A stretch of 64,000 nucleotides of DNA, from contig NZ_MJUZ01000041.1 of NCBI RefSeq assembly GCF_002237645.1, forward strand, positions 62,001-126,000. Reading direction: 5' to 3'. The position numbers and the translations under genes are program-made. Numbering within the stretch: position 1 is the stretch's first letter; every line of letters starts with the position of its first letter. This stretch comes from Desulfovibrio sp. MES5 (lineage in GTDB: Bacteria; Desulfobacterota; Desulfovibrionia; Desulfovibrionales; Desulfovibrionaceae). The notes under the pieces are model-generated. The model saw only the letters and a list, made by a program, of their open reading frames with translations. It was not told where the DNA came from and made no database searches. Positions 22,996 through 52,468 of this stretch are shown in pieces.

Positions 22996-23156
22996 TGAAA
23001 TGGCGTGATGCCTGGAGGGCGTCGTCTCTGGCGCCCCAGTTTCGGATTTAAAAACATTTTGTGCTATGCTGAAATGCCATAAGAGTTTTAGGGCGTGGGG
23101 CGTGTGAGAGGAGACCCTTTTGCAAAAGGGTCCCTCCCCCACAAAACATCCCCCAA
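22996..23156 (+). repeat. Repeat family B, copy 1
   Basis: It has the leader GAAATGGCGTGATGCC, then AAGAGTTTTAGGGCGTGGGG and the palindrome core ACCCTTTTGCAAAAGGGT. The core ends about 17 bp after the galU stop codon, counted along galU transcription. Confidence 0.8.
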
Positions 23157-23166
23157 TAAAACTATC

Positions 23167-24039
23167 CTAGTGAAATTGCACAAAATTTTTGAGCAGATTC
23201 AGCAAATCGTAGCGCAATTCTTCATCCTGAAGGGCAAAATAAATATTGGCCGTCAAAAATTCGGCCCAGTCGCCAGCGTCAAAGCGCATGCCTGACATAC
23301 GCACCGCCATCATGCCCTTGTCCTGAGCCAGAGCCTGAAGGGCGTCGGTCAACTGAATTTCACCCCCATGGCCAGGGGTGACTTTTTCAAGATAGTCAAA
23401 AATATCGGGAGTAAGCACATAGCGTCCCACAATGGCCATGCGGGAAGGCGCTTTTTCTCTGGCGGGTTTTTCCACCATATTCTTGACCCTGAACACGCCG
23501 GGGGCCACTTCATCGCCTTCGATGATGCCGTAGCGGCTGACCTTTTCCCACGGAACTTCCATAACGCCGATGACGGGCATTTTTTCCGCCATGGCCACTT
23601 CAATAAGCTGCGCGATGCCGGGCACTCCGCCAAACATGAGGTCGTCGCCCACCATGACGGCAAAGGGATCATCACGCACAAGCTCGCGCGCGCAGAGCAC
23701 CGCATGGCCAAGGCCAAGCTGCTTTTTCTGGCGCACGGACATGATGTTGACCATTTCAGCCACCTGGCGCACTTCGGCAAGCTTGTCCAGCTTTCCGGCG
23801 CGTTCCAGCACGGATTCCAGCTGCAGGTTGTAGTCAAAATGGTCTTCAATAACGCTCTTGTCGCGGTTGGTTACAAAGATCACGTCCTGGATATTGGCCT
23901 TCTGGGCCTCCTCAACCACATACTGGATGACAGGCTTATTGTAGATGGGCAGCATTTCCTTGGGAATATTCTTGGTCGCAGGCAATGAGCGCGTACCCCA
24001 TCCGGCTACGGGAATAATAACCTTGCGAATATCCTTCAT
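23167..24039 (-). CDS. galU: UTP-glucose-1-phosphate uridylyltransferase
   Basis: A protein of 290 residues. The nucleotide-binding N-terminus IPVAGWGTRSLPATKNIPKE has the Gly-rich loop and the KEMLPI segment. VGDDLM is the metal-binding region. It makes UDP-glucose for polysaccharide and lipopolysaccharide synthesis. It lies downstream of glmM on the same strand but is separated by 658 bp with its own structured spacer, so it is probably transcribed separately. Repeat B follows its stop codon. Confidence 0.95.
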   Translation of the reverse strand: MKDIRKVIIPVAGWGTRSLPATKNIPKEMLPIYNKPVIQYVVEEAQKANIQDVIFVTNRDKSVIEDHFDYNLQLESVLERAGKLDKLAEVRQVAEMVNIMSVRQKKQLGLGHAVLCARELVRDDPFAVMVGDDLMFGGVPGIAQLIEVAMAEKMPVIGVMEVPWEKVSRYGIIEGDEVAPGVFRVKNMVEKPAREKAPSRMAIVGRYVLTPDIFDYLEKVTPGHGGEIQLTDALQALAQDKGMMAVRMSGMRFDAGDWAEFLTANIYFALQDEELRYDLLNLLKNFVQFH

Positions 24040-24697
24040 GCTCGCCTCCGCTGTTTGTTTAGCTTGCTATATATTCGGTCAAAACTGGAACGGATGCAAC
24101 AACCGAAGTGCAGCGGCGCGGATCATAGGGATGCGAAACTTGCGTCGCAGGCAACCACGACCGATGCGGGGCCGCCGCACCATCCCGGCATCCACGGCAA
24201 ATCCGCTGCGCCGTTCCATTTTTGGGCACAGTGGCCTGACAACTAGAGCATTTAACACTTGAAATGCGCATGTACGGCAGGCAAAAGCCTGCCTGTTCGC
24301 ATTTCGTGGCAAGGGTTTTCCTGAAAATCCCTGCAGAGCAGTCAATCCATTTCATTCGTAGCCTGCTCAAAATAACCAGAATTCCGCCCGCCGTCAGCGC
24401 TGTTTCACGTTGCCATTGCGCTGGCGACGCTGTGAGCCGACAACGATGTAAAAACCTCGCCGTAATGGCGTAAACGCCGCCTGGCCGCGCTGTTACGCGC
24501 CGCTGCGGGCGCGCCAAAAGCTTTGAAAAGCCTTTTTCAACGTTGACCGGCTCTGGATCAGATTACCTATCAAATGCTTCATATCTCAATTTGGCATTCT
24601 GCCGAAAATACGATTTTCGGCAGAACCGCGCCATATGGCTGGCGCTGCACTCACATGCAGCGCCAGAGCATGCGCCCTTTTTTAAGGAAAAAACGTT
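24040..24697. other. 658-bp structured spacer between glmM and galU
   Basis: It contains repeat A (24553-24700) and the nested hairpin at 24261-24305. No ORF with start and ribosome site stands out. The galU promoter must lie here. Confidence 0.5.
24261..24305. other. Nested hairpin upstream of galU
   Basis: The outer stem GAAATGCG/CGCATTTC encloses a perfect inner stem GGCAGGC/GCCTGCC with an AAAA loop. It is preceded by TAGAGCATTTAAC, the opening word of repeat A, so it may be a variant of that family. Confidence 0.55.
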
Positions 24698-24700
24698 CTA
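24553..24700 (-). repeat. Repeat family A, copy 2, overlapping the glmM stop
   Basis: The TTCTGCCGAAAA/TTTTCGGCAGAA hairpin and an 11-bp stem CTGGCGCTGCA/TGCAGCGCCAG are both perfect. Its terminal TAG is the stop codon of glmM. Confidence 0.8.
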
Positions 24701-26050
24701 ACGCAGCTCGCGCGCAACCACCTGCGCCAGATCTTCGGCGTATTCACGCACCTTGTCCGCATTTTCGCCTTCCACCATCACACGGCAGAGGGCTTCAGTG
24801 CCGGAGTAGCGCAAAAGCACCCTGCCGCGTCCGCCCAGCTCCTTCTCCACCTGTGCCACGGCTTCGCCAATGGCCGGGCGTTCTTCGAAGGGCAGACGCT
24901 TTTCAACCCGCACGTTGATGAGCTTTTGCGGAAAGGGCGTCAGCAGGCCAGCCAGTTCGGAAAGGGGGCGCTCTTTTTCGCGCATGATGCGCAGTATCTG
25001 CAGGGCGGCCAGCAGGCCGTCGCCCGTTGTGCTGTACTTGTGGAAAATAAGATGCCCGGACTGTTCGCCGCCGAGCATGGCCCCTTCACGGCGCATGGCT
25101 TCCATGACGTACCTGTCGCCCACCTTGGTGCGCAAAAGGCGGCCGCCATGCTCGCTCATAAAGATTTCCAGGGCCATATTGCTCATGGCTGTGGCCACCA
25201 GCAGATTGCCCGGCAACTCGCCCCTGGCCATCATGGCCTGGGCGCAAAGGGCCATGATCTGGTCGCCGTCCAGAATAACGCCGCGCTCATCCACAACGAT
25301 AAGACGGTCGGCATCGCCATCCAGCGCCAGACCCACGTCTGCCCGCACCTCACGAACCTTGGCGGCCACCACTTCAGGATGGAGGGAGCCGCAATGCTCG
25401 TTGATATTGGTGCCGTCAGGGCTTGTACCGATACGGAAGACCTCGGCTCCAAGCTCTTCAAGAGCCAGGGGGGCCACCTTGTAGCTGGCGCCGTTGGCGC
25501 AGTCCACCACAATGCGGAGGCCGGACAGCGTCAGATGCGCCGGAAAACAGCTCTTGGTATACACTATATACCGGCCGCCGGCGTCCTCGATCTTGGTGGC
25601 CCGGCCCACGCCGCGGGAATCGGGATAGGGCCAGGAGAAGCCTTCGTCCAGCACCATGGCCGATATTTCATCCTCAGCCAGGTCGGGCAGCTTGTAGCCA
25701 TCGGCGTCAAAAAACTTGATGCCATTGTCATGAAAAGGATTGTGCGAAGCCGAGATAACCACGCCAAGATCCGCCCGCATGCTGCGCGTCAGAAACGATA
25801 TGGCGGGCGTCGGCAGCGGCCCGGTCATGATGACCTGCATACCCGCCGCGCACAGACCGGCCGTGAGGGCTGATTCGAACATATAGCCCGAAAGGCGCGT
25901 GTCCTTGCCGATAACCACCTTATGCTGATGCTGCCCCCGCCGGAAGCGCACCCCGGCGGCCAGACCCAGACGCAAGGCCACATCCACGGTCATCGGATAA
26001 TTATTGACCGTACCGCGCAAACCATCGGTGCCGAAAAGACGATCGGCCAT
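24698..26050 (-). CDS. glmM: Phosphoglucosamine mutase
   Basis: A protein of 450 residues, the usual length. It has FGTDGLRG at the N-terminus and the phosphoserine loop [17 protein letters not shown]. The metal-binding loop is DGDADR, and RYSGTE lies near the C-terminus. It converts glucosamine-6-phosphate to glucosamine-1-phosphate for peptidoglycan and lipid A. The ATG at 26050 has AAGGAG upstream. It is the last gene of the cdaA-cdaR-glmM block, in which GlmM of other bacteria binds and inhibits the cyclase CdaA. Confidence 0.96.
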
Positions 26051-26110
26051 GCCATCTCCTTCAGGCCGCAAAGCGGCCTCCAACCCCCTGCAACCTGCCG
26101 GGAGGCCGGG

Positions 26111-27043
26111 CTATTTTTTCTTCCGGCTTACCGTAACTTCTTCTGTGCCAGGGTTCAAGAGCGTCATGCCCTCCGGCAGGCGAAAGCGTATCTCAACCTT
26201 GCGGCTCTCCCCTTCCACCATATCGGGCGGGCTGACCGTGGCTTCCAGCTGCTTGAGATACTGGGCATTTTTGGCCAGAGCCTCCGGCACCTCAATGTGC
26301 ACGGTGACTTCCGCTGGCGTCACCGTGTACTGACGGCGGTTTTCAGCCAGAATTTCCACCTTGCAGCTATGGGTTATCTCAGAGCGGCCGCTTGTGATGC
26401 TGTACTGCACCTTGACCGTCGGCGGCAGAGGGGTGACGAGTCCCGGCGTGTCCAGCGTAACCACCTGCTGCACAGTGCTGCCGGCGGCCTTGGCGTCCGC
26501 CTGAATGGACACAGGCACGCTGGTGATGTCTTCCACCACGGCCTCGGGCCCGCGCAAAACCACATTGGACGGGCTGACTTTGACGTTTTCCACCGTCAGC
26601 GCGCCGTTGCTCAGGGACGAACCCACAGCGACACGAACAGGCACCGAGCGTTCTATCAGGTTGTCAGCCTTAACCACAATGCGGGGCGGCTGCACGTCTA
26701 TGAGCTCAAAGGCGCGAAAGCCCGGACCCAGATGTTCGGCGGTCAGGGGCACCACAGTAACGCCCTTTTTGATATGGGAAAGGTCAACAGCCTGAATCAG
26801 CTTGCCCTGCGTCACGGATCGCAACAGGGTTTCCGGCCCGCGCAGACGAATCAGAACCTTGTTTATGAGGCCATCGGTGATCACGAGGTTGGACGGTATG
26901 CCGTAATAGTCCAGAGTGACTTCAAGCTGTGCTTCAACGCGCTCACGCACGCTGACCACGTACCACATGCTCACGGCAGCCAGAACGGCCACCAGCATGG
27001 ACATAAGGTGCGGCGAACGCCGGGAGGAACTAAAGAACTTCAT
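26111..27043 (-). CDS. cdaR: CdaR/YbbR-domain regulator of the diadenylate cyclase
   Basis: A protein of 310 residues with one N-terminal membrane helix (HLMSMLVAVLAAVSMWYVVSV) and several extracytoplasmic YbbR repeats. These are marked by motifs such as VxLRGPE (VLIRLRGPETLL, VVLRGPEAVVED). The start ATG at 27043 follows GAGG and overlaps the end of cdaA by 14 bp, which implies translational coupling. In Gram-positive bacteria CdaR binds and modulates CdaA at the membrane. The same arrangement here suggests the same role. Confidence 0.9.
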   Translation of the reverse strand: MKFFSSSRRSPHLMSMLVAVLAAVSMWYVVSVRERVEAQLEVTLDYYGIPSNLVITDGLINKVLIRLRGPETLLRSVTQGKLIQAVDLSHIKKGVTVVPLTAEHLGPGFRAFELIDVQPPRIVVKADNLIERSVPVRVAVGSSLSNGALTVENVKVSPSNVVLRGPEAVVEDITSVPVSIQADAKAAGSTVQQVVTLDTPGLVTPLPPTVKVQYSITSGRSEITHSCKVEILAENRRQYTVTPAEVTVHIEVPEALAKNAQYLKQLEATVSPPDMVEGESRKVEIRFRLPEGMTLLNPGTEEVTVSRKKK

Positions 27044-27764
27044 TGAGAACCTCACGCAAACGGGTGGCATCCAGGGCGCGCATAAGTTCGCCCTTCATGG
27101 CCACAGAAATTTCGCCCCGCTCTTCTGAAACGACAATGGTTACAGCGTCAGTTTCTAAGGTTACTCCGAGAGCCGCCCTGTGGCGGGTGCCGAAGCTCTG
27201 CCCCTTGGCCTCGGCCAGGGGAAGGATGCAGGCGGCGGCCATAAGTCTGCCGTTGCTGATGACCACAGCGCCGTCGTGCAGAGGGGCCTTGGGATAAAAA
27301 ATGTTCATGAGCAGCTGACGTGAAAGCTGCGCGTCAACGCGCACGCCTTCGCGCTTGATCATATCGCCAAGGCGCATGCTGCGCTCAACCACAATAAGAG
27401 CGCCCACACGCAGGCGGGCCATTTCCACGCAGGCCATGACCACTTCTTCAACACCGTCTTTCAAAAGCTGTTTTCGGCGGAACAGACGTCGTGTGCCCAT
27501 TTCGCCCAAGGCCTGCCGGATGTCGGATTGAAAAATGACCACAATAAGAATGAAAAGGGAGCTGAAGATATGCTGTAATAGCCAGTTCAGCGTATACAGC
27601 CCCATGGCCTTGGCAAAAAAGAACAGGAGGGTCAGCACGCCAAGGCCGGTTAGTACAGCCAGGGCGCGCGAGCCGCGCACCAACTGGATAAGCTGGTACA
27701 AAAGCACGCTGACCACGCCTATATCCAGAAGATCGCGCCATTCAATGGGTATATTGTCCAGCAC
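27030..27764 (-). CDS. cdaA: Diadenylate cyclase CdaA
   Basis: A protein of 244 residues with three N-terminal membrane helices and a DisA_N catalytic domain. The two signature motifs are present: DGA (LHDGAVVI) and RHR (GTRHRAALG). It joins two ATP into cyclic di-AMP at the membrane. The start is GTG at 27764 with AAGGA nine bases upstream. Gene order cdaA-cdaR-glmM is conserved in Firmicutes, and finding it behind ftsH and folP is notable in a proteobacterial-type genome. Confidence 0.95.
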   Translation of the reverse strand: MLDNIPIEWRDLLDIGVVSVLLYQLIQLVRGSRALAVLTGLGVLTLLFFFAKAMGLYTLNWLLQHIFSSLFILIVVIFQSDIRQALGEMGTRRLFRRKQLLKDGVEEVVMACVEMARLRVGALIVVERSMRLGDMIKREGVRVDAQLSRQLLMNIFYPKAPLHDGAVVISNGRLMAAACILPLAEAKGQSFGTRHRAALGVTLETDAVTIVVSEERGEISVAMKGELMRALDATRLREVLNEVL

Positions 27765-27890
27765 CGTTTATGATCCTTGACCTGAAGATATCAGAACTTG
27801 TATGGCCGCGCCCGCCAGGCCATGACGCCGGGCAGTTCGTCCCTTCCGTTTTCACACATTTTCGCCTGAACGACAGCCTGCGGAGCACCC

Positions 27891-29279
27891 CTACCGGGCG
27901 ACCTGCCGCGTATGCCCCCGACGGCGTTCCTTATCCAGATACATGGCCTTGTCGGCCCGTGAAAGCAGCTCGTCAAGCGTCTTCCCGTTTTCAGGATAGC
28001 CTGCCCTGCCCACGCTGAAAATGATAGGCTCGTCCAGCCCTTCGTCGGGCAGACCGTTTGCCAGGGTTGCGGCGGCCCTGTCCAGCGCGGCAGTCATCTG
28101 CGCATCTGTGTACCCGCTGAACAGCACCAGAATGAACTCGTCGCCGCCCATGCGGGCAAACACACTGCCTGGCGGCGCGACGGACTGTATGACAGCCGCG
28201 AAATGTTGCAATACTCGGTCGCCAGCTTTATGTCCATAGGTATCATTAATAGCTTTAAAGCGATCTAAGTCTAAGTAATACAATATGAATTTTTCACCTT
28301 GTTCTTCCACCGCACGGGCCGCCATGGTATAAAAAAGCCCGCGCCTGTTGAAGGCGCCGGTAAGCGTGTCTTTATACACCATTTCTTCAAGGCGGCAGTG
28401 GGCTTCGGCCAGGTCCCGGTTTTTCTGGGCAAGCGAGGCAAGCAAAAGGCTGAGCAGCGCGGCGGAAAAAATATAGAACCAGTTTTCAAAAAATCCGTGC
28501 CATGCTTCATTGTAGGAGATGCGAAACTGCCAGTTGGCGTCGAAAATCTGTAAAGGCATGTTCATGTGCGGCGCGTCTTCATCAAAAGGGCGGGCACTGG
28601 CGGCAATGGACATCCACTCATGTTTCTGGCGATCGAAGTACAGGATGTCATAGCTCAAACCCTGCTTTTCAATCAGGTCAAGATCGGCAACATCAAGTAG
28701 CTGCGGGAACTTGAGCGCAATGAAGGCCATACCCCAGAACCTGTCCTGACCGTCGCCATCCTTCAAGAACACCGGCAGAATCCCCACCAGCGCCTTCGTG
28801 CCGTCAGGCAGTTGCAGCGGGCCGAAAACACTGATGTCCTCATGACTGCGTGAAGCGACAGTGGCTTCACCATACGGGGGATCGAGAAGGTTCATTCCCA
28901 ACAGGGCTTCATGCCCCTTCAGGGGATACACATAGGAGATGACCCCGGCAGGAGCCACACCCAGGATATCCATGTGCTCGGTATGGGAAAGATACTGGGC
29001 AACGTCGTCAAAACCGGCCACCTGCCCGTCATTATGGACGACAAGAGCGGCCAGGGCCCGCGCTTTGAAAAGCAGGCCGGAGAGATCCGCCCTCAGATCA
29101 TCCCTTTGCGCCAGGATGATGTTTTCCAGACGGGAGAATTCCACCTGCGCCCGACGCTGCACAAGAAAAAACACCGCAATCAGACAGCAGCACAGGCTCG
29201 TCACGAATACCGTCAAAAAGGTTCCGGATTTTCGCACGGCATTGAATGTTGTTTGTGAATGACCGCGGACGCATGCCAT
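27891..29279 (-). CDS. Membrane CHASE-GGDEF diguanylate cyclase
   Basis: A protein of 462 residues. Two membrane helices (FLTVFVTSLCCCLIAVFFLV and FYIFSAALLSLLLASLA) flank a periplasmic CHASE-like sensor (GVAPAGVISYVYPLKGHEAL). The GGDEF domain starts near YKDTLTGAFNRRG and has the intact signature RMGGDEF. The RxxD inhibitory site just before it is not seen (PPGS in its place), so product inhibition is probably lost. It should make cyclic di-GMP. It lies between folP and cdaA on the same strand, 126 bp before cdaA. The start at 29279 is a best guess, with only a weak ribosome site. Confidence 0.9.
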   Translation of the reverse strand: MACVRGHSQTTFNAVRKSGTFLTVFVTSLCCCLIAVFFLVQRRAQVEFSRLENIILAQRDDLRADLSGLLFKARALAALVVHNDGQVAGFDDVAQYLSHTEHMDILGVAPAGVISYVYPLKGHEALLGMNLLDPPYGEATVASRSHEDISVFGPLQLPDGTKALVGILPVFLKDGDGQDRFWGMAFIALKFPQLLDVADLDLIEKQGLSYDILYFDRQKHEWMSIAASARPFDEDAPHMNMPLQIFDANWQFRISYNEAWHGFFENWFYIFSAALLSLLLASLAQKNRDLAEAHCRLEEMVYKDTLTGAFNRRGLFYTMAARAVEEQGEKFILYYLDLDRFKAINDTYGHKAGDRVLQHFAAVIQSVAPPGSVFARMGGDEFILVLFSGYTDAQMTAALDRAAATLANGLPDEGLDEPIIFSVGRAGYPENGKTLDELLSRADKAMYLDKERRRGHTRQVAR

Positions 29280-29313
29280 GCTTTTACTCTGTTTGAGCAA
29301 TGATTATTATGAG

Positions 29314-30189
29314 TTATGATCCACCAAAAGCTGTGGCTACCGCAAGCGCCTGCCTGGCTTCAGCCACATGGTGCACCCTGTGCCAGAATATGCCCCTGGC
29401 CCACAGAAGCGCCGTGGCAGCCACGGTGGCGGCGCCGCGACGCGACGGCGGCAGTGACAGCAGGCCGCCGAAGACCGACTTCATAGACAGGGCCATAAGT
29501 ACGGGCCTTCCAAAGCCGAGCCAGTCTTCAGGGTGAGCCAGCAGTTCGAGATTGTGCGCCAGGGTCTTGCCAAACCCTATGCCAGGATCAAGCACAATGC
29601 GGTTTTCCGGCAGCCCTGCCCGTACCAGACGTGCAAGGTTGCGCTCAAAAAACTCCCGAACTTCACGCCGGACATCATCATAGCGAGGGTTTTGCTGCAT
29701 GGTCTCCGGACGTCCCTGGCTGTGCATGAGCACATAGCCCGGCTTGTATTGCACAAGCACGTCCAAAAGACCGGGATCAAAGGCGCAGGCTGAGATATCG
29801 TTGATTATGACCGCCCCCAGATCCAGAGCAGCCGCGGCTGTGGCCGCATGGTAGGTATCGACCGAAACGGTTGTCCAGGGGGCATGGCGGCGCAGTCCCA
29901 TAAGCACGGGCGCAAGGCGCTGTATTTCTGCCTCCGGCGGCAACTCGGCCGCGCCAGGCCGTGAGGATTCTGCGCCAAGATCCAGAATGTCCGCGCCCTG
30001 CTCAATCAGGGTCAGGGCATGCTCAAGACCGGCGGGCGGCATGTGGTGCACGCCCCCATCGTAGAAGGAATCTGGCGTAAGATTGACAATGCCCATAACG
30101 CCAAAGGGGGAAGGCGTCTTTAACGCCCGCCCCCCCTTAACGTACCAGGTTGCGTCCTCTACCGACGCCTCCGGGAATGCATTTTTCAT
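29314..30189 (-). CDS. folP: Dihydropteroate synthase
   Basis: A protein of 291 residues with MGIVNLTPDSF near residue 32, then DLGAESSRPG and LDPGIGFGKT, and the C-terminal MALSMKS region. It joins 4-aminobenzoate to dihydropterin pyrophosphate in folate synthesis and is the sulfonamide target. Its ATG shares one base with the ftsH stop codon (TAATG), so the two genes are translationally coupled. Confidence 0.95.
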   Translation of the reverse strand: MKNAFPEASVEDATWYVKGGRALKTPSPFGVMGIVNLTPDSFYDGGVHHMPPAGLEHALTLIEQGADILDLGAESSRPGAAELPPEAEIQRLAPVLMGLRRHAPWTTVSVDTYHAATAAAALDLGAVIINDISACAFDPGLLDVLVQYKPGYVLMHSQGRPETMQQNPRYDDVRREVREFFERNLARLVRAGLPENRIVLDPGIGFGKTLAHNLELLAHPEDWLGFGRPVLMALSMKSVFGGLLSLPPSRRGAATVAATALLWARGIFWHRVHHVAEARQALAVATAFGGS

Positions 30190-32249: not shown

Positions 32250-32453
32250 TGCCTCCATTACGTTTTCCGCGCGCAGCAACGCGCGGCCAGGACCCAGATA
32301 TAGGCCCACGCAAGCAGAGAAATACTACCTGCACGTAGCCGCTGTCAAATGGACGGACTCCACGCTCACCGGCATTACCTTTTTTCACATATAATGCCTG
32401 CTTATGGTTTGGCAATGGCAAAAAGACACTTTGAAAAGATCGCGCCCTGCCAC

Positions 32454-32482
32454 TTGCGGGGTTTTTCATTTTCGCTTAACAT
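32454..32482 (+). promoter_or_regulatory. Possible selC promoter
   Basis: TTGCGG and TAACAT are separated by 17 bp and end 14 bp before the tRNA. Confidence 0.4.
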
Positions 32483-32496
32483 ACAGGGAATTATGC

Positions 32497-32590
32497 GGAG
32501 ACGTTTCGTCACCGGTGTGGCGCCCGGTCTTCAAAACCGGTGGCAGGCTTTACGGTCTGTGGTAGGTTCGACCCCTATACGTCTCCGCCA
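32497..32590 (+). tRNA. selC: tRNA-Sec (anticodon TCA)
   Basis: The acceptor stem GGAGACGT pairs with ACGTCTCC over 8 bp, followed by GCCA. The anticodon loop CTTCAAAA holds TCA. The variable arm is long, and GGTTCGACCCC forms the T loop. The 94-nt length and 8-bp acceptor are those of selenocysteine tRNA. It reads UGA in selenoproteins, which must lie outside this window. Confidence 0.95.
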
Positions 32591-32697
32591 AATGCTTATT
32601 CTGCAGTCCGGAGGCTGACGGCAGGCTACGCCTGCGCAACTCTGCTTATCTTTTCGTTTTATCCCACTTATCCCACAATCCACCCAAGAGAACCAAT

Positions 32698-39636: not shown

Positions 39637-39777
39637 CTTTTGGGGGCCCTTTTGCAAAAGGGTTCCTCTCCCATGCCCCCTCTAAAACTCTTATTGCATG
39701 TAAGTATGCTTCAAAGGGATTTTCTGATCTGAAGCGGGAGTTTCTGAGACAGTGCCTTCCCGGCACACAGCATCTCA
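39637..39777 (-). repeat. Repeat family B, copy 2
   Basis: The palindrome core CCCTTTTGCAAAAGGG (39647-39662) starts about 60 bp after the MFS stop. CTAAAACTCTTAT and a tail ending GCACACAGCATCTC follow, matching copy 1 in the opposite direction. Confidence 0.8.
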
Positions 39778-39914
39778 AGGGTCGCCTGCGCCAGCTGCTG
39801 CCAAAGTCAGATGCACTAAACAGGACAATCTGTTTCCCTGCCTCGATGGGAATACTGGCTGAGTGTCTTTGAAAGGCATCGTACAACGCATACAAACGCA
39901 GCAGACAGGGCTGT

Positions 39915-40061
39915 TTAGAGCTTTTTAACTTTGAAAAAGTTTGAATGCTCTAACGCTGCGCGAGAATGCGCGCGCCATAACATGGCGTGGGTTCTGCAGA
40001 AAATTGCATTTTTCTGCAGAATGACAACTTTGAAATGTGAAGCATTTCAAAGTTAATCTGG
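39915..40061 (+). repeat. Repeat family A, copy 3
   Basis: It runs from TAGAGCTTTTTAACTTT to AAAGTTAATCTGG. The stem TTCTGCAGAAAA/TTTTCTGCAGAA and the closing hairpin AACTTTGAAATG/CATTTCAAAGTT are both perfect. Confidence 0.85.
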
Positions 40062-40986: not shown

Positions 40987-41184
40987 GGTTTGAGCGCCCC
41001 GCAGCACCTTCGCATAGGGCATGCACATAACGGCGGCAAAAAACATACGACGCCTGCCCGCGCATGCCGCTCCAGTACTAGGCCCCAAACATCTCCCCGC
41101 CGCCATTCCCGCAAATGTGGATAACAGGCGCGCATGACGTACAGCCCCCGACAAATATTTTTGTATTTGCTCAGGGACTCCAGA

Positions 41185-41328
41185 CCAGATTACCGTTGAA
41201 CTACTTCACATTTCAATTTTTATTGCCGAAAAATGTGATCTTCGGCAGAGTCCACCCTAGGTTGCGGCGCGCTGCGCTCTTGTGCAGCAGCAGAGTATGT
41301 AACTTTTTCAAAGGTAAAATACTCTAAA
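41185..41328 (-). repeat. Repeat family A, copy 4
   Basis: It begins CCAGATTACC and ends AAAATACTCTA. The central hairpin has CTGCCGAA and TTCGGCA arms. Confidence 0.75.
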
Positions 41329-41909: not shown

Positions 41910-41950
41910 GTGGGGGAAGGACCCTTTTGCACAAGGGTCTTCTCCCCCAC
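41910..41950 (-). repeat. Repeat family B, copy 3 (core only)
   Basis: GTGGGGGAAGGACCC and GGGTCTTCTCCCCCAC flank TTTTGCACAA, followed by CCCCCTAAAACATTTAT. It starts 32 bp after the stop of the exported protein gene. Confidence 0.8.
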
Positions 41951-42208
41951 CCCCCTAAAACATTTATCGCAAGAGCGTGCCCTGGCCGTGGGGCATAGCC
42001 GCCTTGACTGCGCCTGCAAAGCCTGCTCTCACACGCTGGAACCCGCCAACATGGGCCAGTACCGGCCAATGTGGGGCAATCGGGCCAGTACGGGCATGCC
42101 GCAAGCGGCAAGAGCCTGCATTTGCGACGGCTATCAGTTCTCCCATAGCGGCAGCGCATCCAGCGCTAAAGGCAGTCATTTGGGCCGGGCATTCTGCGGA
42201 CCGACAAT

Positions 42209-42296: not shown

Positions 42297-42330
42297 ATAA
42301 ACCGGTTAAAAGTCGTTCTGATCCGACCTG

Positions 42331-44572: not shown

Positions 44573-45321
44573 GGCAACCGCCCCTGACCAGAGTTAAAAA
44601 CCGTCCGTTCACTGCAGTGTGAACGGGCGGTTTTTCTGTTTACGGCGCCGTTCCACCAGCCATTCCCCCCAGCGCGGCCCCCATCTGCACGGCACGCTCG
44701 CGCATTTCTTTTCCTCGCTCCGGGGCTGGCTGTCCCAATCCACGCTTTCTGAGAAAAATGCTCGTCTGGCTGTCGTGCGCTGGCGCGGGGCATGCAGTCG
44801 CAACGTCCCCGTTCTTGTTCACGGGGCCGCATGAACAGCTGGCGAAATCGACATGCCCATACCCGCGCAACGGGCAAAAACGCCAGTGGCCATTGCATGC
44901 GGCTGTCCGCCGTAATCGCTGTGCCGGACACAGTGAAAATGCTTACACTCCAAAAGGTAATCTGCTATGCTGACTCCAGACTCCGTAATGACGGGCTGGC
45001 GGCGGCATGCGCGCCTTTACATTCACAAGCGCGCTGCCATCTTGCCAGGCAGGCTACATGACCCGCCTGGGCAGCGCCAACATACTCTTAGCGTGCATCA
45101 TAAGCTGCAAGAAACCAGTTGGTTATCATATTCGCCACTCTTCGGCATGGGCATATTTTTTCTCTAACTTGCCATAATATAAAACTTCAGGCAGTTAAAA
45201 GTATACATCATAGTGGTCAGTTATCTACTTCTTTATGTGCTCTTTAGAGCCCGTCATTTGTCGTCGGCCGTCAACTGCTCTTAACAGGCTGGCATTTAAG
45301 TTTATTATAAGGAGTGGACTC
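44573..45321. other. 749-bp spacer after deaD, no recognised gene
   Basis: After the deaD terminator there is about 300 bp of coding-like GC-rich sequence open on both strands but without a convincing start. An AT-rich stretch leads into the MCP gene. It may be a decayed gene. Confidence 0.45.
44594..44638 (+). terminator. deaD terminator
   Basis: AAAAACCG...CCGTTCAC pairs with GTGAACGG...CGGTTTTT around a short loop, with one mismatch, followed by TTTTCTGTTT. Confidence 0.9.
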
Positions 45322-47415
45322 ATGAGACGTGGCTTGATGACTAAAATGATCCTTTTCATCCTTGTCCCGGCGATTCTTGGTCTGGTGCTGCTCGCTGGCA
45401 TGAGCTACAAAATGTCAGAAAAAATCCTGCGCACGCAGATTGAAACCGACATGACAACGGTGTTGCAGACCCAGGCCTCAGGCGTACATGCCGTTATTAT
45501 GGGATTAAGAGATTCCCTTGCCATAGTATCACAGAACAACAGGATCACGCAGTACATAAATCTCTACAACACTGGCGAGCCAGACGTCCTTTCCTCACCG
45601 CAGGCCGCAGCGGTGGATAACGCCTTGCGCGAATTCACCGAAGTCAGCGGCAATATCGTCTACGGTGCGCTTATAGCTCCAGACGGAAAGGTGATCGCCC
45701 ACCATGTCAGAGGGCAGAGCGGCCCCAGCAAGACCGTTGGAACGGATTTTTCCACGCGCCCCTATTTTCCCAAAGCCTTGAAGGGCAACACCAGCATCTC
45801 GGATGTGGTCAGCCTCACCACAGGGCAGCCCACAACGGTTATTGCCCTTCCGGTTAAACGCGAAGGCAAGATAGTTGGCGTCGTTACCGTGGGCATTGAC
45901 GACGCCAATCTGGCGGACGAAACGACCAACCTCGTCAAGGTGGGACAAAAGGGCTTTGCCTTTATCTATGACATGAACGGCAAGATGATCATGCACCCGG
46001 ACCCCAAGGTGCGCACCCGCGAAGACGGCGCGCTGGCTCATGTGCGGGAGATGGTCGGCACAAAGCATGGCCGCGTCACATACACCGATGCCCAGGGCGA
46101 GGCCAAGATCATCTATTTCCAGCAGTTGCCTGAAGAAAACTGGATTATCGGCCTTGAACTCGACAGCAACGAAATACTTGCGCCGGTGCAGCAGTTGTTC
46201 ACCAATGCCCTGCTGCTGGCAGGGGGGTGCGTGTTGATTGTCGGGCTCATGATCATTGTTTCAGCGCGCGGCATTGCACGCATGGCCCGCGGTTTTTCCC
46301 ACATGGCTGAGGCCGTGGCCGGAGGACAGCTGGATACGGACGAGAAAAGACAGCTTCTGCTCAAGCACGCCCGAAACCGCAAGGACGAATTCAGTGTTCT
46401 TGCTCAGGGCATGGAACATATGGTTGCCAACATAAAAAGCCTGCTTGAAGAAGGTGAACAAAAAACGCTGGCCGCCGAGCAGGCCGCCGCTGCGGCGCAA
46501 CAAGCCACAGTACAGGCCGAAGAGGCGGCACAGCGCGCCGAGCGCGCCAAGCGCGAGGGTATGCTTGCCGCTGCGGAACAGCTGGAAGGGGTGGTTTCCA
46601 TCATTTTCTCCGCCTCCAGCCAGCTTTCTGCCCAGATTGAGCAGTCCGACCACACGGCGGTGGGGTCGGCCCAGCGCCTGGGCGAAGCCGCCACTGCCAT
46701 GAACGAAATGAACGCCACCGTGCAGGAGGTTGCCCGCAACGCTTCCGCCGCCGCGTCCGTGTCAGCCGAAACCAAGGTCAATGCCGAGACCGGGGCAAAA
46801 ATCGTGCAAAGCGCCCTGCAAAGCATCGATCAGGTGCACAAGGTTTCGCTTGAGCTTAAAGAAGACATGGCAAAGCTCAGCGAGCACGCGCAGGCCATCA
46901 ACCGCATCATGAGCGTCATTTCGGACATAGCCGATCAGACCAACCTGCTGGCGCTTAACGCCGCCATTGAAGCGGCCCGCGCCGGCGATGCCGGACGGGG
47001 CTTTGCCGTGGTCGCCGATGAAGTGCGCAAGCTGGCCGAAAAAACCATGGCCTCAACCCACGATGTGGGCGGCGCCATTGCCGCCATACAGGAAAGCGTT
47101 TCCCAGAGCGTTTCCGCCATGGACAAGGCCCTGCACGAGGTGGAGACAGCCACCCTCTTTGCCAACCAGTCCGGCGACGCCCTGCGGCAGATCGTCACCA
47201 ATGTTGAAGCCTCGGCGGATCAGGTGGGCGCAATCGCCACGGCCAGCGAAGAGCAGTCCGCTGCCAGCGAAGAGATCAACCAGTCCATCACGCAGGTAAA
47301 CGAGATGTCCAACCAGACGGCCCAGGCCATGGGTGAAGCCGCGCAGGCGGTGGCCGAGCTGGCGCGGCAGGCGCAAGCCCTCAACCAGCTTATCGCAGAG
47401 ATGAAACAGGGATAA
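45322..47415 (+). CDS. Methyl-accepting chemotaxis protein with Cache sensor domain
   Basis: A protein of 697 residues. Its first membrane helix is [20 protein letters not shown] double-Cache type periplasmic domain follows ([17 protein letters not shown], then [17 protein letters not shown]). The second helix is [22 protein letters not shown], an Ala-rich coiled coil and the signalling hairpin ([20 protein letters not shown]) complete it. AAGGAG precedes the ATG at 45322. The region from coiled coil to hairpin is close to that of the MCP at 35347-37434, so the two share a common ancestor but sense different ligands. Confidence 0.93.
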
Positions 47416-47795
47416 GGCGCGTTCAGGCCAGCCCTGAGCCAGCGTCGGGGGCCGCCATAGTCGGAACGGCAACCAGGGCAGCCCTTGCCCGCTGCGTCAG
47501 GCGAAGAGTGCGGGGTGCAGCCCACTGGCAAAAGGCAGGTTTTTGCGGCATGGTGGTCATGACCAATGGCAAGAATACGCGTACCGAGCGGGATTTATTG
47601 CTCTTGTATAACAGATTGCCTTTACGGATACATATTCGCCAAGGCTGCGGCGCGTAACTCTGCGGGTGCGCAGTGCATGACAGCGCTGATGCGCCGCGCG
47701 GCACGGCCAGACCACGCAGCCCGTGCATTTTCTAAGTAAAATCACGTCTCCCCTCTCGCTACGGCCCGACGATCTCACAACAAAAGGCAGACCTC
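47416..47795. other. 380-bp spacer before modD
   Basis: No terminator with a T-run, no riboswitch and no gene were recognised. It must hold the modD promoter. Confidence 0.45.
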
Positions 47796-48671
47796 ATGCA
47801 TATTCCCAAATCTTCTTCGTGGTTTGACGGCCTGCTGGCCGACGATTGCCCCGGCCCGGACCTGACTGTCGAAATGCTGGGCATTGGGGCGCATACCGGA
47901 GCCATGTTTTTCAGCCCCCGCCAGCAAGGCGTTATCAGCGGTGTGGAAGAAGCCGAACAGTTGCTGCTGCGCTGCGGCCTCTCTGTTACACGGCTGATCA
48001 ACAATGGCGACGTTGCCGAAGCGGACCAGGTATTTCTTGAGGCCAGGGGAAGCGCTGCGGGCCTGCACCGGGGCTGGAAGGCAAGCCAGGCGCTTATGGA
48101 ATACATGTCGGGCATTGCGCGGCGTTGCGCCTTTATGGTGGAGCGCGCCGCCGCCGTGCGCCCTGGCGTGCGGGTAGCCGTAACGCGCAAAAGTTTTCCC
48201 GGAGCCAAAGCCCTGTGCCTTGAGGCGGCAATGAACGGCGGAGCCATTATTCACCGCCAGAACCTTTCAGACTCCATCCTGGTTTTTTCACAGCATCTAC
48301 AGTTTTTCGCCAATGACAACCAGCAGACGCCCATGGAGTTTTTTGCCCGTCGCGTGCAGGACCTGCGCGCCAGCATGCCTGAAAAAAAACTCTCCGCCGA
48401 GGTGGACAACCTTGAGGACGCCCTGCTCACCGCCGCCGCCGGAATAGACATTGTTCAGTGCGAAAAATTCTCCTGCGCGGACCTGGCCGCTACTGTGGGA
48501 GCTTTGCGGGGCACGCGCCCGGACATTCTCATTCTGGCCGCAGGGGGCATTACGGGCGAAAACGCCACGGAATACGCGGCCACGGGCGTGGACGTACTCG
48601 TGACAACCTGGCCCTATTTCGGCAGACCAGCGGATATCGGGGTAGTTATGGAAGCTGACGGCGGCATGTAG
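47796..48671 (+). CDS. modD: ModD, quinolinate phosphoribosyltransferase-like protein of molybdenum loci
   Basis: A protein of 291 residues with the fold of nicotinate-nucleotide pyrophosphorylase. It opens LLADDCPGPDLTVEMLGI and has conserved CGL...INNGD, VTRKSFPGAKAL and AAGGITGENATEYAATGVDVL. ModD is usually found with molybdate transport genes and its reaction is unknown. Here it stands alone. A strong terminator follows. Confidence 0.85.
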   Translation: MHIPKSSSWFDGLLADDCPGPDLTVEMLGIGAHTGAMFFSPRQQGVISGVEEAEQLLLRCGLSVTRLINNGDVAEADQVFLEARGSAAGLHRGWKASQALMEYMSGIARRCAFMVERAAAVRPGVRVAVTRKSFPGAKALCLEAAMNGGAIIHRQNLSDSILVFSQHLQFFANDNQQTPMEFFARRVQDLRASMPEKKLSAEVDNLEDALLTAAAGIDIVQCEKFSCADLAATVGALRGTRPDILILAAGGITGENATEYAATGVDVLVTTWPYFGRPADIGVVMEADGGM

Positions 48672-49133
48672 CCGTTGCGTAGCAAAAAGCCCGCGCAAAG
48701 AGCTATCTCTTGCGCGGGCTTAATTTTTCAGCATGCCTGGCGGGCTGCACACTGCCTGGCTACGGGCAGCAATGTTGCAAAACGCGGTTCTCTCTAACCC
48801 CGCTCGCCTGGCCCCACCCGTTGCTAACCAGGTTTGCCACCCGGTTTGCCCACCCTTGCCCTACACTACCTGCCCTACCCGGCCTGACATCACCCGGCTT
48901 GTCGCGCGCTGGCAACCCTGCCTCATCGACCTGGGGAATGAAAAGGGGATTAAAACCTGCGGGCACAGCACACCGCCACATCCAGAGCCTGTCGCCTAAA
49001 ATTGCTCTGGCGACGGCAAGAGGCAGCTTTCGCCGTGAAGCCCCACGCGGCGGAGGGGCAGCAGCATTGTCGCACGTCGTGTCAGGCGTACCGTAAGCTT
49101 TGAGAATGCATTTTCTCAAAGCTTTTACCGTCT
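48672..49133. other. 462-bp spacer after modD
   Basis: It has the modD terminator and a C-rich, G-poor stretch (48798-48895). A family C hairpin, AAGCTTTGAGAA/TTCTCAAAGCTT, lies at 49094-49123. No gene is seen. Confidence 0.5.
48685..48722 (+). terminator. modD terminator
   Basis: AAGCCCGCGCAA and TTGCGCGGGCTT form a perfect 12-bp stem followed by AATTTTTC, 14 bp after the stop. Confidence 0.92.
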
Positions 49134-49628
49134 TCAGGAAGCGGCGCTCTCCCTGTGCGCGGCAGCCCTGGCCGCGATACGCAAAAACTTTTCGCCCAGT
49201 ACGCCGGGCGCGATCTTTGCCTTGGCCCCGGACGAGGTGCGCACGCTGCCCGCAAGCTCCATTGGCTCGCTGTTGTATGCGCCCCGCAAGGCTTCTTCCA
49301 TGGCCTGACGCAAAAGCTCAAAAGAAGCCTCAACTTCGGGGTAGCTGTTGTCTTCACGCCAGGGGAGCAGCAATGTGCGCGTCCAGGCATGCCCCTTGTG
49401 CGAGGGGGCTTCCAACACGTGAAAGTTTTTGGGGCAGTAGTTTGCGGCGCGTTCCAGCAAACCGGGATAGCAATAGTCCTGCCGGTCTTCCTCGGGTTTG
49501 GGAATGCGCGAAACAATGCTCACCACGGGCAGAGCCAGCGCCTTTTCGTGATCTTCAAGGTGAACGCAGTAACTGAGTACAGGCCGCAGGTTGCCGCGTT
49601 TTTTGGTTATTTTCCATTCAATCTGCAT
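49134..49628 (-). CDS. Unknown protein, third gene of the MoxR-VWA module
   Basis: A protein of 164 residues, soluble, starting MQIEWKITKKRGNLRPVLSY. The ATG at 49628 lies inside the end of the upstream VWA gene (about 11 bp overlap), so translation is probably coupled. It has scattered Cys and a C-terminal basic helix. I recognise no domain. Position and coupling suggest a partner or substrate adaptor of the MoxR/VWA pair. Confidence 0.7.
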   Translation of the reverse strand: MQIEWKITKKRGNLRPVLSYCVHLEDHEKALALPVVSIVSRIPKPEEDRQDYCYPGLLERAANYCPKNFHVLEAPSHKGHAWTRTLLLPWREDNSYPEVEASFELLRQAMEEALRGAYNSEPMELAGSVRTSSGAKAKIAPGVLGEKFLRIAARAAAHRESAAS

Positions 49629-51147
49629 GGTTTGCTCGCAAAGGCACAGGCGTGCCCGGTTGTTGGCCCGGCAAACGGGACGCATGGCCCGTCAGCGTTA
49701 CAAGTTCGCCAAAAGGCGGCGCGTCGGGCCGGGGTTCGCTGCACACCCACAGCACGGGGTAGTCTGGTTCATCAGGAAAACGGCTGCATTCAAGATCTGT
49801 AAACCAGACAAGGCAGGTGGGGCGCAGTTGCCGCTCGTCAATATGCGCGCAGACGGGGCGGTAGTCCGTGCCGCCGCCGCCAACGGGCGTCAGGCTTGAG
49901 GGCATGCTCATGCGGTCAAAGGTCATTTCGCCCTGAATTTTTGTATCGTGGAACAGCACGGTGAGCATGGTGTCATAGGCATCCAGCACAGAAAACAGCT
50001 CGGAGCAGAACAGCGACAGGGCCGCCTCATCCACGGAGCCGGAACAGTCCACGGCCAGAACCACATGGGGCAGGCGCGCCTCGCGCCGGGCTGGCAGATA
50101 GATATGCTGGTACAGGTAGCGCCTGTTGGGTGTGGACCACGCATAGTCATTGTCCGCGCACTGCTCAAGAAAGCGCCGCAGGAGTTCGCGCCAGTCCAGT
50201 TCCGGGCGGCGCTCCCTTTTGAGCAGCCGCGTGAAGCCCGCAGGCAGGCTGCCCATATGTCTGGCCCGCTGCACCGCTTGCGAAAGGGCCACGTCGGCCT
50301 CCTGCTCCATCAATTTCAGGGCGTGCTCGTTCTCCAGACCCTGCAAGTCGGGGTGGTCGCGCACCTCGCCGGTAAAAGAGGTTTTGCCCTCCCCTTTTAC
50401 CGGAGCACCCGATTTTTTGTTTTTTGCTGCCTTTGTGCCGGCCTGGGCCTGATCTTCTCCATCCTGTCCGGGATGTTCTTTTTTGCCGCCCTGAGAGCGC
50501 GCGGCGCTTTTGCCGCCCAACTCCTTGCCGCCGTCAAAATTCATGGCCCCCGCGCCCGCTTCATCCTGACCGTCCGCACGGGCGGAATCATTGTCGGCCT
50601 CGCCTTTGGAGGCGCTTTCCTGAAGGGCCGCAAGGGCCTCATAAATATCATCCGCAGACATGCCCGCGTAGGTTGGGTCGTGCGCAAAGCCCTCTGGCAG
50701 GTCAAAGCCCGCTTCAAGCAGAATATGGTTTATGGCCAGATCGCAGGCGCGGTTCCACAATTTTTCTTCACGGCTCTTGCGGCGCAGATGATGCCCAAAG
50801 GCCAGATGCATAACTTCGTGAGCCTGGGCCGCCACAAGTTTGGCCTCTGGCAGGGTGGCCGCGTATGCAGGATTGAAACCCAGGTTTTTGCCGTCCGTCC
50901 ACATGTCCGCGCAGCTCGTGTCTTCCTTGAAGCGCAGGCGCAGGGCCAGGGAACCGAAAAAAGGATGATCCAGCACAAGGGCCGTTCTGGCTTTTTTCAT
51001 GGCAAGGGCAGCCTTGCCAGAGAGCGCTTCCGGCCCGGCAGAGGCGGGCGCGGCCGGGCAGGCAGCGACTGCGGCTGGGGCAGGGGCTTCCGGCCCGGGA
51101 TCAGCAGGCCCGGACTCAAGGTTTACGGCACTGGCGTCTTGCTTCAT
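49618..51147 (-). CDS. VWA-like metallopeptidase (DUF2201 type)
   Basis: A protein of 509 residues. An N-terminal putative metallopeptidase domain has an HExxH motif (AAQAHEVMHLAFGHH). A long charged, low-complexity linker (about 195-275) follows. A C-terminal VWA-like domain opens VVLAVDCSGSVDEAALS, which fits a DxSxS metal site, and has GGGGTDYRPV. Proteins of this type pair with MoxR ATPases, which act as chaperones that load or activate partners. The gene starts 3 bp after the MoxR stop. Confidence 0.88.
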   Translation of the reverse strand: MKQDASAVNLESGPADPGPEAPAPAAVAACPAAPASAGPEALSGKAALAMKKARTALVLDHPFFGSLALRLRFKEDTSCADMWTDGKNLGFNPAYAATLPEAKLVAAQAHEVMHLAFGHHLRRKSREEKLWNRACDLAINHILLEAGFDLPEGFAHDPTYAGMSADDIYEALAALQESASKGEADNDSARADGQDEAGAGAMNFDGGKELGGKSAARSQGGKKEHPGQDGEDQAQAGTKAAKNKKSGAPVKGEGKTSFTGEVRDHPDLQGLENEHALKLMEQEADVALSQAVQRARHMGSLPAGFTRLLKRERRPELDWRELLRRFLEQCADNDYAWSTPNRRYLYQHIYLPARREARLPHVVLAVDCSGSVDEAALSLFCSELFSVLDAYDTMLTVLFHDTKIQGEMTFDRMSMPSSLTPVGGGGTDYRPVCAHIDERQLRPTCLVWFTDLECSRFPDEPDYPVLWVCSEPRPDAPPFGELVTLTGHASRLPGQQPGTPVPLRANHAD

Positions 51148-51150
51148 GAC

Positions 51151-52143
51151 CTACATCAGCACTTCGGCATTTTTTTCTGCCCAGCGTGAAAAGGCCTCGG
51201 AGTGCACGAGGTCCGTATCCTGACACACGGCGTCGCGCATGAGCAATACGCCGAATTCCGAAGGCAGGCGTTCGGCATAGGCCGTCAGCGCTTCGATGGT
51301 TTCTGTGCTGGCCCTGAGGCTCAAGGCCTCGCACATGGCGTAGAGGGCGGCGGGCTCAAGGGGAACCATGGCTGAAGCCGGAGCGGCCAGCACTTCATCC
51401 ACCGTGGGCAGTTCGCGCCATACGGAAAGAAAGCCCATAAATTCCGCAGCGCCAGCCGAACCCACCGTGCCCTGAAACAGTTCGTACTCCACATCGGCGT
51501 CGGGCCGGGCATCAAGAATGCGCGACACAAACTCCCAGGAGCGCGGCGAAGCAAAGGCCTTTTCCGCCTTCTGCGGGTCAAAATCGTGCAATAAACGGGG
51601 TCGAAAGCGCAAAAACGCGCAAACTTCAGCGCGTATGCCAGCCCCCTGCGCCCAGGAGAGCCAGTCGTCCAGATGGGCGTCGCACTCCAGGTGCACCAGA
51701 CGGTTGGCCAGGGCCGACGGCATGCGGTACGACACGGCCTTGTCCTTTTCCCTGTTGCCCGCCGCCACGATGGACCAGCCGTCGGGCAGGCGGTACTCAC
51801 CAATGGCGCGGTCAAGAATGAGCTGGTAGCAGGCGGCCTGCACCAAAGGGGGCGCGGCGTTGAGTTCATCCAGAAAAATAATGCCCTCTTCCGGGTCCGA
51901 AGGCGTGGGCAGAAAGGCTGGCGGGCACCACACCGAAAGCCCTTGATCGGTAATGCGCGGCAGCCCGCGCAGATCGACAGGATCAAGCAATACGGCGCGA
52001 ATGTCGCGCAGGGCCAACCCCCTGGCCTGGGCCACCTGGGCTACTATCTGGCTTTTGCCTACCCCCGGCGCGCCCCAGATGAAAACCGGCTGCCGGATGG
52101 AAAGAAGAGAGTTCAGGGCTGAGACTATTTGCGAAGGAGTCAT
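51151..52143 (-). CDS. MoxR-type AAA+ ATPase
   Basis: A protein of 330 residues with Walker A GAPGVGKS near residue 25, Walker B GIIFLDEL and the sensor region AAGNREKDKAVSYRMP. It is the first gene of a three-gene operon with the VWA metallopeptidase and an unknown protein. MoxR ATPases are thought to remodel or mature target enzymes together with VWA proteins. The target here is not evident from neighbours. Confidence 0.92.
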   Translation of the reverse strand: MTPSQIVSALNSLLSIRQPVFIWGAPGVGKSQIVAQVAQARGLALRDIRAVLLDPVDLRGLPRITDQGLSVWCPPAFLPTPSDPEEGIIFLDELNAAPPLVQAACYQLILDRAIGEYRLPDGWSIVAAGNREKDKAVSYRMPSALANRLVHLECDAHLDDWLSWAQGAGIRAEVCAFLRFRPRLLHDFDPQKAEKAFASPRSWEFVSRILDARPDADVEYELFQGTVGSAGAAEFMGFLSVWRELPTVDEVLAAPASAMVPLEPAALYAMCEALSLRASTETIEALTAYAERLPSEFGVLLMRDAVCQDTDLVHSEAFSRWAEKNAEVLM

Positions 52144-52318
52144 GATAATCCTGTGTGCATTTCAGACAGATGGTTAAGAATGCCTGCACACTGCCCTATA
52201 TGAAAATGAAAGTCAATGTCACAGAACTGCGATGCGAGCACTCCCACTGGGCAATCGTCCGGCGACTGCGAAGGCAAGCCCCCCGCTCCGCTGGTGCTGC
52301 GCTAAAGCAAACATTTTT

Positions 52319-52468
52319 GAGATGGTGTGATGCCGGACGACGCGACCTCTGAAAGCACCGCTCCGGGTCAGCAAGCTCTTTGCGATATACCAAGATTTGA
52401 TAAGAATTTTAGGGGGTGGGGGCGTGGGAGAGGGACCCTTTTGCAAAAGGGTCCCTCTCCCACAAAAA
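52319..52468 (+). repeat. Repeat family B, copy 4, with a 40-bp perfect palindrome
   Basis: The leader GAGATGGTGTGATGCCGG leads to AAGAATTTTAGGGGGTGGGG. The core at 52424-52463 (GTGGGAGAGGGACCCTTTTG and its exact complement) has two 20-base arms with no loop. It lies 40 bp after the stop of the EamA transporter gene. Confidence 0.9.

Follow-up and report, generated by a model that had tools for sequence, protein, structure and literature searches.

Element H, an amplified hairpin repeat with a mirror-repeated, putative third strand at gene 3' ends in Desulfovibrio sp. MES5

REP sequences and BIMEs, which are associated with RAYT transposases, are short palindromic repeats between genes that sometimes occur as inverted pairs. 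A strand folding along a hairpin as the third strand of a triplex requires a mirror repeat, and not a direct or inverted repeat. Intrastrand triplex motifs of this kind were counted in 5,246 genomes and plasmids by Holder et al. (2015, PMC4666352). According to the parts of that article used here, no stable triplex was found in vivo in E. coli, earlier work cited therein found the E. coli motif to be without terminator activity, and the main text makes no mention of Desulfovibrio. Whether any intrastrand triplex motif is kept for its triplex had stayed open. In the portion of Kingsford et al. (2007, PMC1852404) drawn upon, D. desulfuricans G20 is counted among the heavy users of intrinsic terminators. 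Here, we describe a repeat, termed element H, found in 64,000 nucleotides of Desulfovibrio sp. MES5 (contig NZ_MJUZ01000041.1, positions 62,001 to 126,000; "the window").

On the sense strand, H comprises a purine arm R, the tip CCCTTTTNNAAAAGGG, a pyrimidine arm Y, a short turn, the strand Y' (a mirror of Y) and the tail AAAACYYTTAT; the conserved unit is a stem of about 18 bp, the C-rich strand and this tail. The four copies in the window are composed of the following parts:

23102..23142, minus strand: copy 1 hairpin (R arm, CCCTTTTGCAAAAGGG tip, Y arm), 3' of a galU-like gene
23091..23101, minus strand: copy 1 C-rich third strand, GCCCCACGCCC in sense
23079..23090, minus strand: copy 1 tail TAAAACTCTTAT
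22995..23078, minus strand: copy 1 second module, end GGCATCACGCCATTTCAG, 4 mismatches to the module end
39642..39672, plus strand: copy 2 hairpin with shortened 5' arm, 3' of an MFS gene
39674..39682, plus strand: copy 2 C-rich strand
39683..39694, plus strand: copy 2 tail TAAAACTCTTAT
39695..39778, plus strand: copy 2 second module, diverged, 9 mismatches to the module end
41910..41950, plus strand: copy 3 hairpin, 3' of a gene for a small exported protein
41951..41955, plus strand: copy 3 C-rich strand, shortened
41956..41967, plus strand: copy 3 tail TAAAACATTTAT
52424..52463, minus strand: copy 4 hairpin, a perfect 40-bp palindrome, 3' of an EamA gene
52412..52423, minus strand: copy 4 third strand, GCCCCCACCCCC in sense
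52400..52411, minus strand: copy 4 tail TAAAATTCTTAT
52317..52399, minus strand: copy 4 second module, end GGCATCACACCATCTCAA, 6 mismatches over the 25-nt module end

The cores are located at 23115-23130, 39647-39662, 41922-41937 (1 mismatch) and 52436-52451, and the hairpin centres of copies 1-4 lie 44, 67-74, 52 and 59 nt from the stop codon, respectively. The galU-like gene matches the Pfam family NTP_transferase, the MFS and EamA genes match MFS_1 and EamA, and the small exported protein upstream of copy 3 is without a Pfam match. A first-pass annotation of the window had proposed four palindromic copies, including a perfect 40-bp palindrome; a core is indeed present at each of the four sites, the perfect palindrome spans 52424-52463, and the family was confirmed genome-wide. 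The tail which that annotation assigned to three copies exists, yet all four carry it (CTAAAACTCTTAT with 0, 0, 2 and 1 mismatches), always on the gene-distal side. Likewise, the word GAGATGGTGTGATGCC (here GGCATCAC...CATCTC) is real, and it constitutes the end of a second module that follows 20 of 54 copies. The statement that no T-run follows the palindromes holds at the stem base, where a U-tract is absent; a T-rich part begins only after the C-rich stretch, which measures about 12 nt in full copies, and the AAAAC that follows. Of the features of a canonical intrinsic terminator, H has the G/C-rich stem-loop, and it lacks the U-tract directly after the stem.

The window copies are members of a large family. 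The 3.47-Mb genome contains 198 cores (CCCTTTTGCAAAAGGG, at most 2 mismatches), as opposed to 2 for a reversed-pattern control; this is the unbiased density figure. The 42 copies in a 464-kb sample are an inflated count, since the 20 stretches of the own genome outside contig C11 were picked around known copies. With at most 1 mismatch the core occurs 171 times in this genome and 0, 0, 1, 2 and 0 times in five genus mates drawn. Within the window alone, the core has 4 matches when up to 3 mismatches are allowed; shuffled sequence gave 0.51 on average, and 1 of 100 shuffles reached at least 4. The 64-bp form of H (at most 3 mismatches) is present in 3 of 61 genus genomes, the own genome included, while a tip-and-tail pattern finds matches in 27 of 149 family genomes and 13 of 44 genera (control pattern: 8 matches overall); of the family matches, at least that in genome G017 looks random. 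The named loci with an H-like element include Desulfovibrio sp. STF2_171 and Nitratidesulfovibrio liaohensis, and a relative, G178, harbours three H subfamilies with 28, 10 and 6 copies in 400 kb. Among 297 genomes of the phylum, 19 matched the H architecture; three belong to the own family and the other 16 have one random-looking match each. Three of five Clostridia genomes (reached via loci L044, L048, L051, L063 and L066) also matched, most of their elements being too short for mirror testing. Rfam 15 (gathering score) yielded a tRNA-Sec away from the H copies as its sole match in the window and no match at 12 loci with H-like elements, and H had no match in collections of plasmids, phages and viral contigs.

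The Watson-Crick stem is borne out by the variation among copies. Across 57 aligned copies (61 minus four with a score below 25; two at contig edges had been skipped earlier), two-sided changes occur at 14 of 17 stem pairs, a value reached by 0 of 500 shuffles, and 94.1% of the cells are paired, compared with 53-70% for slid partners. A typed 140-nt consensus folds with an ensemble energy of -64.4 kcal/mol (z -4.8), and copy 3 with a z of -2.8. The consensus from 35 copies is AAATGCTTTGTGGGGGAGGGACCCTTTTGCAAAAGGGTCCCTCCCCCACGCCCCCACCCCCTAAAACTTTTATTG, and weaker conservation continues for about 100 bases. This stretch is the second module, whose end is found within 9 mismatches in the 20 of 54 copies from the own genome and its relatives (excluding copies below 30 bits and three at edges), whereas reversed control sequence never falls below 11 mismatches. 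A candidate outer stem, GAAATGCTTTG / TAAAACTTTT, can be drawn by hand. The reversed tail as a partner is present as an exact pattern in 2 of 38 copies of the own genome.

A feature absent from the first-pass annotation is the mirror relation between the C-rich strand and the 3' arm of the hairpin. It is seen in diverged homologues: in G138 the C-rich strand mirrors the 3' arm (CCTCTCTCG/GCTCTCTCC), in G088 the mirror reads GGCTTCTCCCCCCGG-A-CCCCCCTCTTC, and in one G066 element it fits by eye throughout a 17-nt arm, if A may replace T. In the own genome alone the mirror is nearly homopolymeric C and not significant (p 0.20). A per-element shuffle of 39 strings from 22 genomes, obtained by the tip-and-tail scan of the family and excluding near-duplicates and the G017 match, yielded a median p of 0.03 for the mirror and 0.27 for a direct repeat, with Fisher p-values of 8e-10 and 0.007, respectively; all of these p-values, including those of the permutations below, are optimistic on account of related genomes and subfamilies. 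Re-pairing arms and third strands among 33 elements gave scores of 133±10 compared with an actual mirror score of 239.5, which 0 of 5,000 permutations reached. This set goes back to 36 strings (30 from the tip-and-tail scan, G104 being dropped, and six from other comparisons), of which three could not be split; one element stems from an Oscillospiraceae MAG (Clostridia; L048), nearly all elements coming from Desulfovibrionaceae. A second set comprised any hairpin with a tail, irrespective of the tip, in stretches of three other genera. Its 25 elements (among the 43 hairpins listed, repeats excluded), which partly overlap the first set through G178 and G088, scored 207.5 compared with 115.9±11.5 upon re-pairing, and again 0 of 5,000 permutations reached this value.

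When both were given equal freedom, the mirror outscored the direct repeat by 19 to 2 with 11 ties (32 elements), and by 20 to 1 with four ties among the 25 elements of the second set. Watson-Crick pairing of R with Y' needs a direct repeat and was rejected on these counts. The direct-repeat signal also exceeds its own permutation (232.5 compared with 192.6±5.6), as expected of short C/T patterns. Moreover, Y and Y' agree in length (Spearman 0.79, n=32), differing by 1-3 nt in 28 of 32 elements. The automatic stem length correlates weakly with the distance to the tail in other genomes (Spearman 0.43, n=46) and negatively in the own genome (-0.50, n=22), because, we think, the stem ends were misjudged; the comparison of Y and Y' was used instead, and the weak result stands. 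Three consecutive purine or pyrimidine blocks, the third mirroring its neighbour, which is the layout that defines an intrastrand triplex motif, are hence present across genera. We know of no copying process that yields mirror repeats, and therefore selection on a triplex-capable shape is the simplest account: judged by comparison between genera, the mirror is apparently kept by selection and the layout of an intrastrand triplex preserved. The antisense strand also bears four G-runs; a G-quadruplex was set aside, since it requires no arm mirror and leaves that of H unexplained.

Opposite the lone A-T pair of the stem, a purine-motif triplex on the antisense strand tolerates both A and T, and T is the sole base tolerated by a pyrimidine motif on the sense strand. 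The third-strand base facing this pair (in sense) is A in 24 and T in 5 of the 29 copies, out of 57, that could be parsed by a C-X-C pattern; A in 15, T in 6 and G in 1 of 22 among the 26 matches listed for the own genome (29 found); and A in 6 and T in 5 of 11 strings from G495. In the second set, a third-strand A faces T eight times, C once and G twice, and of the 267 facing positions, 222 are compatible with a purine-motif triplex (C/C, T/T, T/A) and 45 are not. As A at the facing position suits the purine and not the pyrimidine motif, and T suits the former as well, the data favour the template DNA strand of the upstream gene as the likelier triplex former. Part of the triplex rules behind this argument comes from the consulted sections of PMC4666352.

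In the own genome, H is oriented and placed at gene 3' ends, as had been surmised from the window. Within the 464 kb, 41 copies were placed using a simple codon-usage gene caller; 39 have a called upstream gene, and 36 of these are co-oriented with it (24 in convergent and 12 in tandem gaps). Two of the remaining three are counter-oriented tandem copies, and one is without a gene called on the far side. Convergent gaps of at least 80 bp number 42 in the sample, compared with the 24 H copies in convergent gaps, and no copy was placed in a divergent gap of these 464 kb. A random placement or orientation of further copies, which was to speak against the pattern, was not observed in the 464 kb of this genome; in other genera the orientation is looser. 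Among 44 copies in G178, 17 lie in convergent gaps and 11 in tandem gaps in the direction of the upstream gene; a further 10 tandem copies run counter to it, 5 are divergent and 1 is within a gene. The gaps of at least 100 bp in G178 comprise 30 convergent, 88 tandem and 37 divergent ones. In one G178 subfamily, 15 of 28 copies are, by pattern, joined tail to tail by another hairpin built in the same way, and these pairs account partly, not wholly, for the weak orientation bias. None of the four family members in G088 is co-oriented with the preceding gene, the neighbours being backed by Pfam. At 30 loci of tip-and-tail elements, 21 of 29 with an upstream gene called are co-oriented according to crude gene calls; for one of these, L157, Pfam matches at that site contradict the call.

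The idea that H inserts next to existing terminators does not describe the rule: none of the 24 copies located within 80 nt of the stop codon has a canonical U-tract terminator between stop codon and hairpin, and 3 of the 12 more distant copies have one. Among gene ends without H, a terminator is present within 58 nt at 2 of 58 where the genes converge and at 11 of 121 where they are in tandem, and within 150 nt at 19 of 58 and 30 of 121, to which the far H copies are similar. The missing canonical terminators ahead of H are therefore uninformative, as stretches of equal length without H also have few.

The amplification of H is clear, and in this respect the proposed mobile module is an amplified repeat; a matching transposase was not found among the Y1 family, to which the search was confined. 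This search yielded four matches in the own genome, three interrupted and one short. One was classified as IS200/IS605-type (95.9 bits, cut-off 55), the REP-associated model scoring 28.5 bits, below its cut-off of 80. The TTGAAATG and TTGAGATG ends, inspected for MITE-like terminal repeats, resemble each other weakly by eye, the right end being present in the 20 of 54 copies mentioned above, and no target duplication was seen in the flanks inspected. Judged by the galU-like protein, the nearest relatives are G134 (99%), G173 (98%) and G138 (97%), where H is present at 5 of 5 (one a weak remnant), 4 of 14 and 1 of 11 comparable 3' ends, respectively; these are under-counts, because the HMM was built on copies of the own genome. 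At the galU locus, G134 has H and G173 has none; in its place, G138 seems on inspection by eye to have a hairpin with CCTTTCTT after it. A clean empty site was not encountered: where H is missing the whole gap differs, and hence insertion and replacement are not separable.

We tentatively prefer, at somewhat less than an even chance, the reading that H is an amplified 3'-end element of the terminator class, which would end the upstream transcript or fix its 3' end, and for which the third strand would matter. The third strand alongside the stem would be provided by Y' or, on the template DNA strand, by the complement of Y'; the structure would thereby run directly up to a nearly pure A/U stretch, resulting in a weak RNA-DNA hybrid, and the triplex would stand in for a stem abutting a U-tract. 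Points that weigh against this reading are the weak orientation bias in G178, the lack of co-orientation in G088, the non-significant mirror within the own genome, the 45 misfits in the second set and the negative in vivo result of Holder et al. for E. coli. A REP- or MITE-like selfish repeat, tolerated only between genes and biased to 3' ends through selection against promoter copies, is less likely. It would account for 198 near-identical cores here versus 0-2 in five genus mates, for the 64-bp form in just 3 of 61 genus genomes (own included), for three subfamilies numbering 28, 10 and 6 copies within 400 kb of G178, for the second module accompanying 20 of 54 copies, and for an orientation bias that is weak in G178 and nil in G088. 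However, neither a clean empty site nor a target duplication was seen, no mover emerged among Y1 transposases (the sole family searched), plasmids, phages and viral contigs gave no match, and mere copying would not demand a mirror that covaries from genus to genus, for which a structural role is needed.

Such a role might be confined to DNA, with an intrastrand triplex stalling polymerases or promoting rearrangement as considered for the E. coli TM/BoxC/PIT motifs. The strand logic is the same as in these motifs, as far as described in the sections of PMC4666352 used, and a purine-motif DNA triplex accommodates the A or T opposite the lone A-T pair; but the E. coli motif is reported there without strand bias, H is strongly oriented here and the AAAAC tail would be left without an obvious role, which renders this account improbable. 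Slightly less probable still is an RNA 3'-end protector, namely a stable hairpin stopping exonucleases after termination elsewhere, e.g., by Rho. The very stable hairpin (z -4.8 for the consensus, -2.8 for copy 3) and the C-rich, G-poor stretch past the stem are in line with it, yet the mirror covariation and the matching lengths of Y and Y' would go unexplained. Returning to the terminator-class reading, a wider version is doubtful and carries slightly less weight than the selfish repeat: Desulfovibrionaceae, and in a shorter form some Clostridia, might possess a distinct terminator, in which the mirror strand forms a triplex with the hairpin, either in RNA or on the template DNA, the structure reaches the A/U hybrid, a stem-adjacent U-tract becomes unnecessary and convergent genes are served by inverted pairs joined at their tails. 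The joint change of mirror strand and hairpin from genus to genus constitutes comparative evidence for third-strand selection, and the 3'-end position offers a simple reporter assay for the role of H. If H ends transcription, terminator prediction that seeks a stem-adjacent T-run would miss it.

Compared with known systems, H would be filed, on sequence grounds, under the intrastrand triplex motifs, with differences from the E. coli motif, and most likely acts at transcript 3' ends. Like PIT, BoxC and TM, as far as covered by the sections of PMC4666352 used here, it combines a G/C-rich hairpin and a mirror third strand on one strand and is repeated between genes, its antisense strand reading R'-R-Y, the class I order of that work. 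In contrast, the E. coli TM reads Y-R-R' and is reported without strand bias, and H has a longer stem, carries AAAACYYTTAT as a conserved tail and is strongly oriented at gene 3' ends of its own genome. With the uptake-sequence terminators of Neisseria and Pasteurellaceae (PMC1852404, in the portion drawn upon), H shares repeated inverted sequences at gene 3' ends, which in those bacteria are terminator hairpins; theirs, however, are paired uptake signals in T-tailed terminators, whereas H has a C-rich strand in place of the T-tail and a core that is rare in the genus mates drawn. A literature search of limited scope found nothing on triplex terminators or these repeats. H further resembles REP/BIME elements as a short palindromic intergenic repeat with inverted pairs in G178, yet differs in that no RAYT was identified, the one classified among four Y1 matches being IS200-type. 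Finally, H shares with canonical intrinsic terminators the G/C-rich hairpin past the stop codon and differs from them in that its U-rich part is off the stem, separated in full copies by about 12 C-rich nucleotides and AAAAC.

In Desulfovibrio sp. MES5, the cores (palindrome centres) of H, the amplified hairpin at gene 3' ends, lie no more than about 50 bases from the start of contigs C4, C17, C18 and C44, and the H repeat therefore probably breaks the assembly. The window also harbours a tRNA-Sec gene (32497-32586) and a third repeat family of approximately 145 bp, GAGCATTTTACTTTGAAAAAG... ...TTGAAATGTGAAGTATTTCAAAG, which occurs both with and without H and shares 74-81% identity with the query copy:

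39918-40060, copy of the third family
41182-41324, copy of the third family
16657-16748, copy of the third family
24556-24692, copy of the third family
56041-56169, copy of the third family

Another repeat of 150-160 bp, GGAAACGCTGATTTATTCCG... ...CGCGTTTCC, is found in the same genome (L024:13556-13716) and at many sites in its nearest relatives, G134 and G173, with between-species identities of mostly 90-99%. This imperfect palindrome is sometimes immediately preceded by a TAG stop codon, and in one case (merged stretch C5b, L033:64-216) abuts a truncated H tail. The repeat is likely a MITE.

In G178, a genome from another genus, two unlike triplex-type hairpins (layout with a mirror third strand) form tail-to-tail pairs with complementary tails (L216-L235), and in several convergent gaps such a pair occupies the whole space separating both stop codons.

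Another family occurs in uncultured Clostridia and has the same core as H. Most of its members read CATTGGGGACAGACCCTTTTGCAAAAGGGTCTGTCCCCAATG, an almost symmetric palindrome, and A/T runs frequently border it. The Clostridia MAG genomes behind loci L048, L051 and L063 carry hairpins whose tip is TTTT..AAAAGGG and which also have a short C-rich stretch and AAAAYYTTTA; two tail-to-tail pairs are among them (G492 contig C11; G489 contig C60):

L047, L050, L053-L055, L058, L060, L061, L065, L068, L070, CATTGGGGACAGACCCTTTTGCAAAAGGGTCTGTCCCCAATG family
L196-L198, L200-L202, L204-L206, L208-L210, L212, L213, L215, TTTT..AAAAGGG-tip hairpins

The layout of hairpin, C-rich run and tail crosses phyla, either by descent or by convergence.
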